This document shows positions 32,639-60,620 of a DNA stretch of 64,000 nt, piece after piece. Source of the DNA: Methylobacterium gnaphalii (GTDB lineage: Bacteria; Pseudomonadota; Alphaproteobacteria; Rhizobiales; Beijerinckiaceae); contig NZ_BJZV01000006.1 of assembly GCF_007992215.1 (NCBI RefSeq), positions 62,001-126,000 on the forward strand. The letters run 5' to 3'. The translations under genes and the position numbers were made by a program. The first letter of the stretch is position 1. Each line of letters opens with the position of its first letter. The notes under the pieces are model-generated. The model did not search any database and was not told the DNA's origin. It saw only the letters and a list, made by a program, of their open reading frames with translations.

Positions 32639-32905
32639 TCAGCCGGTTTGGAGCGGCGGCTTCAATGTGGGTCCGAAGGCTTCGACAATCTGGTCGAGCG
32701 CCTGACCCACGGCCTCAGTGCCCTCCTCGTGCGTCTTGAGGCGGGTCTCAAGCCGTTCGATCTGAGGCACAAATTCGTGTGGTACGCCTGCCTCGTCACC
32801 GAGGAAGCGCGGCTTGCCATCGCCAACTGTGTAGATCGTACGAAGCTGTTGGCCGAGATGATCACGCACCGGTTCTGGCAGGCTCGTATCGCTGTCGTCG
32901 TTCAT
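32639..32905 (-). CDS. NepR-like protein with inserted loop
   Basis: 88 residues. Residues ~10-24 (PVRDHLGQQLRTIY) match the first helix of NepR anti-sigma factors (x-R-x-x-L-G-x-x-L-R-x-x-Y). Residues ~36-50 (GVPHEFVPQIERLETRL) resemble the second helix, but a ~12-residue loop (VGDGKPRFLGDE) lies between and a helical tail follows. NepR binds and blocks EcfG sigma factors until phosphorylated PhyR takes it away. It is 0.8 kb from the sigma factor below. Family membership is by eye from one helix and a partial second. Start ATG at 32905. Confidence 0.55.
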   Translation of the reverse strand: MNDDSDTSLPEPVRDHLGQQLRTIYTVGDGKPRFLGDEAGVPHEFVPQIERLETRLKTHEEGTEAVGQALDQIVEAFGPTLKPPLQTG

Positions 32906-33083: not shown

Positions 33084-33497
33084 TCAATTGATCACTTCGA
33101 TAATGTGGCCGCGGGTATCGACGAGGACCGGCGTATCGTTCACGACGGTGTAGCGGGTGCCGCGTGCGACGCGGTACTCGCTCGGCACATCGTAGTAGGT
33201 CACGCCGGAGCGGGGCAGCTCGGCACCCACAGCGACGCGGCCATTATAGTCGTAGGAGCGAACGTTGCGCTCACGCACGTAGGAGCGAAAGCGCGGGCGA
33301 TCGTCGACGCCGAGAATGCCGCCGACCGTGCCGGTCGCAGCGCCGACGGCACCGCCAACCACGGCACCGATTGGCCCGCCGACATCGGCGCCTTCCTGCG
33401 CGCCGCGCTCAGCGCCGCGAATGGTGCCTTGCGCCTGCGCAGCCATCGGCAGCGCCAACGCGATGGTGGTCACAGCGAGAAGAGTCTTGAGTTTCAT
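33084..33497 (-). CDS. Secreted DUF1236 protein
   Basis: 137 residues. Signal peptide 1-22 (LAVTTIALALPMAAQAQ). A Gly/Ala-rich stretch with repeated GG.VG..G like a Gly-zipper (about 35-60). Then a DUF1236 domain (RSGVTYYDVPSEYRV...YTVVNDTPVLVDTRGHIIEVI). Envelope protein, common and multi-copy in Hyphomicrobiales, role unknown. Start ATG at 33497. It is separated from the sigma-factor gene by a terminator, so it has its own promoter in the ~90 bases between. Confidence 0.88.
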   Translation of the reverse strand: MKLKTLLAVTTIALALPMAAQAQGTIRGAERGAQEGADVGGPIGAVVGGAVGAATGTVGGILGVDDRPRFRSYVRERNVRSYDYNGRVAVGAELPRSGVTYYDVPSEYRVARGTRYTVVNDTPVLVDTRGHIIEVIN

Positions 33498-33585: not shown

Positions 33586-33617
33586 CGAAAAATAAAAAGA
33601 GCCGATTCTTTTCGGCT
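33586..33617 (-). terminator. Rho-independent terminator of the sigma-factor gene
   Basis: On the minus strand AGCCGA and TCGGCT pair around a 6-base loop and are followed by CTTTTTATTTTT. It sits about 110 bases after the stop of the NepR-EcfG gene. Confidence 0.85.
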
Positions 33618-33729: not shown

Positions 33730-34476
33730 TCAGGCTTCCTTTGGCATCGCCGATTGGATGAACCGGTCGGAGCCGAGGTCTTCCTCGTCGTAGCCGAGCA
33801 GCTCGGCGAGGCGGCCACGGGCGCGGCTGACGCGGCTCTTCACCGTGCCGACCTTGCATCCCATGATCGTCGCGGCCTCCTCGTAGGACACGCCTTCGGC
33901 ACCCACGAGCACCAGCGCCTCGCGCTGGTCCGGCGGCAGCTTGGCCAGCGCTGACTGGAGGTCCTCTACGTCGAGCCGGTCTCCCTGGTGCGGGGCGGTG
34001 GCGAGGCGCGCCGCGTAGGAACCATCCTGGTCCTCGACCTCGCGCACGCGTTTGCGGTGGTCCGAGTAGAAGATGTTGCGAAGGATCGTGAATAGCCAGG
34101 CATTCAGGTTGGTGCCGGGCTGGAAGCGGGCGCGGTGCTGCCAGCCCTTCATCAGCGTGTCCTGGACGAGGTCGTCCGAACGAGCCGGGTTCGAGGTCAG
34201 AGAGAGCGCGAAGGCGCGAAGTGAGGGCACGGCCGCGAGCAGGCCGTTGCGGAAATCGGGATCGACGCGCTCGCCCTGCGCCTTCAGCGCGGCCTCGAGC
34301 TTCGTGATGAGATCGGCGAAGCGGGCGGTGACCGCATCCGGTGTTTCGATCGACTCGTAGACGGTGCGCAGCTGGTCGCCGAGATGCGTACGGATGCTCG
34401 CAGAGAGGTTCGGACGCCCTTCGGCGCCGTCCTCCGCGGGACGATCGAGGGTATCGGCGGTCTCGTTGCGGCTCAT
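33730..34476 (-). CDS. EcfG-type sigma factor with fused N-terminal NepR-like domain
   Basis: 248 residues, ~65 longer than usual EcfG proteins. Residues 28-43 (IRTHLGDQLRTVYES) and 47-64 (DAVTARFADLITKLEAAL) follow the two-helix pattern of the anti-sigma factor NepR. Residues ~75-140 are sigma region 2 (LLAAVPSLRAFALSL, DDLVQDTLMKGW, LNAWLFTILRNIFYSDHRK) and ~168-225 region 4 (LPPDQREALVLVGAEGVSYEEAA, GTVKSRVSRARGRL). EcfG drives the alphaproteobacterial general stress response. The two parts are in one frame with no internal stop. An ATG inside the linker is not seen, so a separate sigma product would need a non-ATG start. Confidence 0.85.
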   Translation of the reverse strand: MSRNETADTLDRPAEDGAEGRPNLSASIRTHLGDQLRTVYESIETPDAVTARFADLITKLEAALKAQGERVDPDFRNGLLAAVPSLRAFALSLTSNPARSDDLVQDTLMKGWQHRARFQPGTNLNAWLFTILRNIFYSDHRKRVREVEDQDGSYAARLATAPHQGDRLDVEDLQSALAKLPPDQREALVLVGAEGVSYEEAATIMGCKVGTVKSRVSRARGRLAELLGYDEEDLGSDRFIQSAMPKEA

Positions 34477-60431: not shown

Positions 60432-60620
60432 TCAGCGAGGCGGCGTCTGGAGCTTGGCCAGCAGCATCTCAAGCCGCTCGCTGACCGGCTCAGCGAGGGT
60501 GGCGGCGTAGTGCGAGCGTAACGTTTTGCCGAGGTGGCGGCGGGTTCCGGCGGTGAGGGGTGGGACGTCGTTACGGTGCGGCAGCGTCTCGGTCCTCGCA
60601 TCGAGCTGGATCTTGGCCAT
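60432..60620 (-). CDS. NepR-family anti-sigma factor paralogue
   Basis: 62 residues. The core TRRHLGKTLRSHYAATLAEPVSERLEMLLAKLQ (residues ~26-58) follows NepR: helix 1 with L-G-x-x-L-R-x-x-Y, the E-P-V turn and helix 2 with R-x-x-x-L-L-x-x-L. NepR holds EcfG until phospho-PhyR displaces it. Start ATG at 60620 with GGGGAG upstream. No PhyR or EcfG gene is adjacent, so it is an orphan copy. TTAA motifs upstream resemble CtrA half-sites. Confidence 0.75.
   Translation of the reverse strand: MAKIQLDARTETLPHRNDVPPLTAGTRRHLGKTLRSHYAATLAEPVSERLEMLLAKLQTPPR

Follow-up and report, generated by a model that had tools for sequence, protein, structure and literature searches.

The window, i.e., the whole 64,000-nucleotide stretch of Methylobacterium gnaphalii DNA that was analysed, carries on its minus strand a gene (33730..34476) that runs in one frame from ATG to TGA, encodes a protein of 248 amino acids and is identified below, by its conservation pattern, as an ecfG1 orthologue. 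The protein consists of a NepR-like extension (residues 21–66; 34279..34416), delimited with PF18557, a NepR profile, predicted helices and dN/dS; a linker between the extension and sigma region 2 (residues 67–73; 34258..34278), taken from an alignment of 81 orthologues in which G68, E69 and P73 are invariant; sigma region 2 of EcfG type (residues 74–145; 34042..34257); and sigma region 4 (residues 171–227; 33796..33966). Pfam places sigma-70 region 2 at residues 84–145 (2.5e-14) and region 4_2 at residues 172–223 (1.2e-18), while the NCBIfam model PRK12547 is matched with 236.6 bits against a cut-off of 219, indicating an EcfG-type sigma2 with sigma4. The closest relative of the core (residues 73–230) in the PDB is the Bartonella RpoE of 5UXX (7.4e-53), which supports both regions.

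The ATG at 34476 (codon 1) matches the start of the orthologues in the alignment. When ATG, GTG and TTG were looked for, codons 2–82 contained none, and up to codon 109 the only further ones are GTG83 and ATG109, both within sigma region 2, so that a start after about residue 65 would leave no intact sigma factor. Such a late start, with the NepR-like part untranslated, had been raised by the sequence-only reading of this DNA; unless a non-canonical start codon is used, the absence of start codons from codons 2–82 rules it out, and we give it next to no probability, given also that full-length EcfG1 and a form shorter by only 14 residues are the ones seen in vivo in M. extorquens AM1 (PMC4814048). 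The Methylorubrum copies have a further ATG near residue 14, which corresponds to the start of the short AM1 isoform; the window gene lacks it.

Copies that are 81–96% identical and align nearly end to end were found in 80 Methylobacterium and Methylorubrum records, which include a few metagenome bins named to family level alone, and such a copy was the best match in each of 25 genomes of the genus searched. EcfG1 is reported as the sole EcfG conserved in all Methylobacterium species (PMC4814048); because the window gene is conserved genus-wide, as only EcfG1 is according to that 2016 study, its product is, judged by this pattern, EcfG1, the principal sigma factor of the general stress response in Methylobacterium. 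On the same basis it would be the orthologue of sigma-EcfG1 (ECF15) of M. extorquens AM1, which likewise combines a NepR-like extension of ~55 residues with an EcfG core. The ecfG1 gene of AM1 is reported to be without an EcfG-type promoter (PMC4814048), and similarly the motif GGAAC-N16/17-BGTT was found upstream of ecfG1 in 0 of 80 loci.

The extension is a NepR-like domain under selection

PF18557 (NepR) matches residues 30–63 of EcfG1 with 17.3 bits (E 0.0037), under its curated cut-off of 25.7. As this match is weak alone, the relatives were used as a further test: 39 of 42 EcfG1 orthologues gave a NepR match in Pfam (best E 2.1e-9), and a profile that drew exclusively on stand-alone NepRs gave more than 10 bits for all 78 orthologous extensions. 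Their median was 40.6 bits, whereas none of 825 shuffled controls exceeded 7.4 bits. Since the orthologues score far over the shuffles, a chance resemblance is ruled out. The extension is a NepR-like domain and its in-frame fusion to the sigma factor is real, as the sequence-only reading had proposed from the uninterrupted frame.

Two NepR-pattern helices had also been guessed from the letters, and AlphaFold2, run with 42 close orthologues and a second time with 7 more distant sequences added, predicts two helices in the extension (26–42 and 46–66) that are the same in both models. The monomer models (pTM 0.43) agree on the sigma domains and leave the extension unplaced, with pLDDT in the second model of ~58–64 for residues 21–50 and ~80 for residues 51–70; Foldseek searches with both models confirmed the ECF core alone. 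The modelled layout of sigma2 and sigma4 differs from that of NepR-bound 5UXX, with a TM of ~0.31 on the length of a model whose pTM is 0.43, and the models neither support nor refute binding of the extension in cis.

Over the 81 EcfG1 orthologues, dN/dS was 0.41 and 0.27 in the two helices, 1.1 in the loop between them, 0.66 in the N-terminal tail and 0.04–0.06 in the sigma domains. Residues L36, R37, Y40, R52, F53, L56, L60, E61 and L64 are invariant, and most of the invariant residues of the extension lie at positions common to stand-alone NepRs. The extension is in use: purifying selection acts on its helices, while the loop is free to vary; an invariant NepR core joined by a freely evolving loop fits a working binding surface, not a relic. 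This difference in selection between helices and loop is new here.

A free-standing relative of the extension downstream of ecfG1

A gene encoding, when read from its ATG, an 88-aa protein (32639..32905, minus strand) was recognised with the extension profile as a free-standing relative of the EcfG1 extension. Pfam gave no significant match on the 88-aa protein; the EcfG1-extension profile scored above 10 bits in 60 of 60 orthologues (median 22) and the stand-alone NepR profile in 28 of the 60. In 60 of 80 loci the gene sits downstream of ecfG1, at a distance of 0.65–3.5 kb; in the Methylorubrum clade it is absent from this place and present elsewhere in the genome (e.g., G188 and G265). It occurs as a single copy in 98 of 99 genomes of the genus, has a dN/dS of 0.35, and is found outside the genus in genera g32, g36 and g41. 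In AM1, three NepR homologues have been studied. The motif GGAAC-N16/17-BGTT was found upstream of the 88-aa gene in 0 of 60 loci, and looser GAAC matches between ecfG1 and the 88-aa gene occurred in only 12 loci, 11 of them in one clade and just after ecfG. We infer that the 88-aa gene belongs to the same regulatory set as ecfG1, and its product may act in trans as the counterpart to the fused domain. The presence of this relative of the extension in 98 of 99 genomes is new here.

Between the two genes lies a further small protein gene (33084–33497, minus strand) with a signal-peptide-like start and a glycine-rich stretch, flanked by terminator-like hairpins at 33617–33600 and 33047–33021.

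Other EcfG, PhyR and NepR genes of the genome

The genome searched (4.78 Mb, 120 contigs) encodes four more fused EcfGs, on contigs C4, C8, C9 and C44, as well as an unfused EcfG on C13 with its own nepR just upstream and another unfused EcfG on C64. PhyR (C11:148379, minus strand, 86.6 bits) and NepR (C11:148844, plus strand, 54.4 bits) are divergent neighbours, and there were no ecfG matches on C11, the contig of phyR and the main nepR; in AM1, too, the canonical phyR and nepR lie away from ecfG. The window itself holds a stand-alone NepR paralogue of 62 aa (60432–60620, minus strand; PF18557, 21 bits).

Elsewhere in the genome, at G000:C12:61642-62148 (minus strand; L019/L196), one protein combines a NepR motif (PF18557, 3.4e-4) with the receiver domain of response regulators (PF00072, 2.8e-11) in a fusion, and the stand-alone-NepR profile gives 37.6 bits for this protein. 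Some 84 of the 99 Methylobacterium genomes contain a match to the NepR-receiver fusion that starts at residue 1–2. No earlier description of it was found in the literature searched, and this genus-wide fusion is new here.

Spread and origin of the fusion

The survey for the same fusion suggested by the sequence-only reading found it across the Methylobacterium relatives. Among the matches listed for 298 genomes of the family, in which the extension was reached without a stop, fusions occur in at least genera g1, g32 and g36 of 43, with room for rarer cases beyond those matches. A class-wide sample of 335 genomes from outside the genus gave 0 NepR-EcfG fusions at the threshold used, in line with a restriction to Methylobacteriaceae; this distribution of the fusion is new here. 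Among 297 genomes of the order, the matches outside the family that had NepR and sigma factor in one frame had a stop codon between the two and so represent neighbouring nepR and ecfG genes; L171 is the single, doubtful exception.

That locus (G566:C101) reads as a fused NepR-EcfG. It comes from an incomplete genome of a different family in the order and is located close to the end of its contig. In the tree of the sigma core it groups with Methylobacterium paralogues, which points to transfer or contamination; for this reason, and given the contig end, we dropped it as a separate origin of the fusion.

Nearly all of the unfused loci fetched from the family have nepR as the gene directly upstream of ecfG, usually in another frame. 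Most relatives thus keep an unfused nepR next to ecfG on its upstream side, the layout that gives rise to a fusion, and the fusion probably arose from neighbours in one operon. Loci with nepR, a stop codon and ecfG in one frame were 13 from other families and L176, all chosen for their in-frame match, while nepR was in a frame other than that of ecfG in 16 of 16 family loci not chosen in this way, and in L006. The former arrangement is suggestive of a fusion in which the stop codon of nepR was lost; given the latter, a frameshift is equally possible.

The sigma-core tree requires 3–4 changes of fusion state, with its deep branches poorly resolved. L007, an unfused EcfG of this genome, is nested among fused EcfGs in that tree, on long branches; its position suggests loss of the extension, although the long branches make this unsure.

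Discussion

A NepR-like extension of ~55 residues on M. extorquens EcfGs, confined to Methylobacteriaceae, is described by Francez-Charlot et al. (2016, PLoS ONE, PMC4814048), who cite Francez-Charlot et al. (PNAS 2009) for it. The sequence-only reading knew of no description of such an architecture; that is wrong, as it had already been published for the M. extorquens AM1 EcfGs. By that citation its record goes back to 2009, and the find is therefore no novelty.

In vitro, only EcfG1 without its extension bound NepR, and in two-hybrid assays with NepR only truncated EcfG1 and, weakly, truncated EcfG5 did so (PMC4814048). Because EcfG1 binds only when truncated, its face for NepR is probably masked in cis by the extension. 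Full-length EcfG1 complemented the sextuple mutant and both isoforms interacted with NepR in vivo in AM1 (PMC4814048), so any masking must be incomplete. The idea that the sigma factor is self-silenced therefore stands in part: the binding data suggest blocking in cis, whereas silencing may not be strict, in view of the complementation by the full-length protein and of EcfG2, which bears an extension and behaves as constitutively active (PMC4814048). For the other two ideas of that reading, direct switching by PhyR and the holding of other sigma factors, evidence turned up neither for nor against.

Based on these data and on homology, the explanation that we consider best, with about an even chance of being right, is that the NepR-derived helices mask the protein's own sigma2 and sigma4 as a weak built-in competitor of NepR. 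The two helices would fold back onto their own sigma2 and sigma4 and shield the surface recognised by free NepR; the fused domain would thus keep EcfG1 partly closed and lower its affinity for NepR, and RNA polymerase or phosphorylated PhyR might open it. With inhibition this weak, a smaller or a different input than in the canonical NepR/EcfG pair would be enough for release. The best-supported element, resting on the published binding data, is that the extension weakens NepR binding; perhaps it weakens binding of RNA polymerase too. Against this explanation stand the constitutive behaviour of EcfG2 with its extension and the AlphaFold2 models, whose extension is unplaced and whose layout is unlike 5UXX.

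The conserved NepR core positions would also fit if the extension were a docking site for phosphorylated PhyR, which would bind it and open a cis-silenced sigma factor without free NepR. We hold this to be unlikely: no interaction of PhyR with the extension was found in the accessible literature, AM1 EcfG1 is controlled through free NepR, and the extension-bearing EcfG2 looks constitutive (PMC4814048). A broader form, a single-chain partner switch with silencing in cis, direct binding of phosphorylated PhyR and the 88-aa protein as a trans competitor tuning the same site, seems less probable still, direct PhyR control of EcfG1 as such being possible. About as improbable as the docking site is a role mainly in stability, core RNA polymerase contact or dimerisation, with the change in NepR binding as a side effect; post-transcriptional control of EcfG3 levels (PMC4814048) and the greater variability of the extension relative to the sigma core (dN/dS 0.3–0.4 against 0.05) would agree with it, but it is the positions typical of NepR proteins themselves that are conserved. 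Finally, the weak Pfam score of the window copy and the unfused L007 within the fused group, by which the extension can be lost, would suit a fused nepR without remaining activity. With both helices constrained around a neutral loop in 81 orthologues and the extension kept in the EcfG1 of 80 of 80 records, this is very unlikely.

Both modules of EcfG1 are homologous to those of the canonical Bartonella pair RpoE-NepR (5UXX), which are two proteins from an operon, whereas EcfG1 is one chain. ECF36, ECF41 and IutY/ECF243 share the idea of a built-in regulator; unlike in EcfG1, their regulators belong to other families, none of them NepR (PMC8999054).

The 2016 study raised the question of the role of the extension and of PhyR control over those EcfGs that do not bind NepR; it infers that EcfG2, too, should be under PhyR, by a route not known to it (PMC4814048). 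The fusion in EcfG1, though not itself new, marks that question, and the 88-aa relative beside ecfG1, which almost all genomes of the genus encode once, provides a specific partner that can be put to the test.
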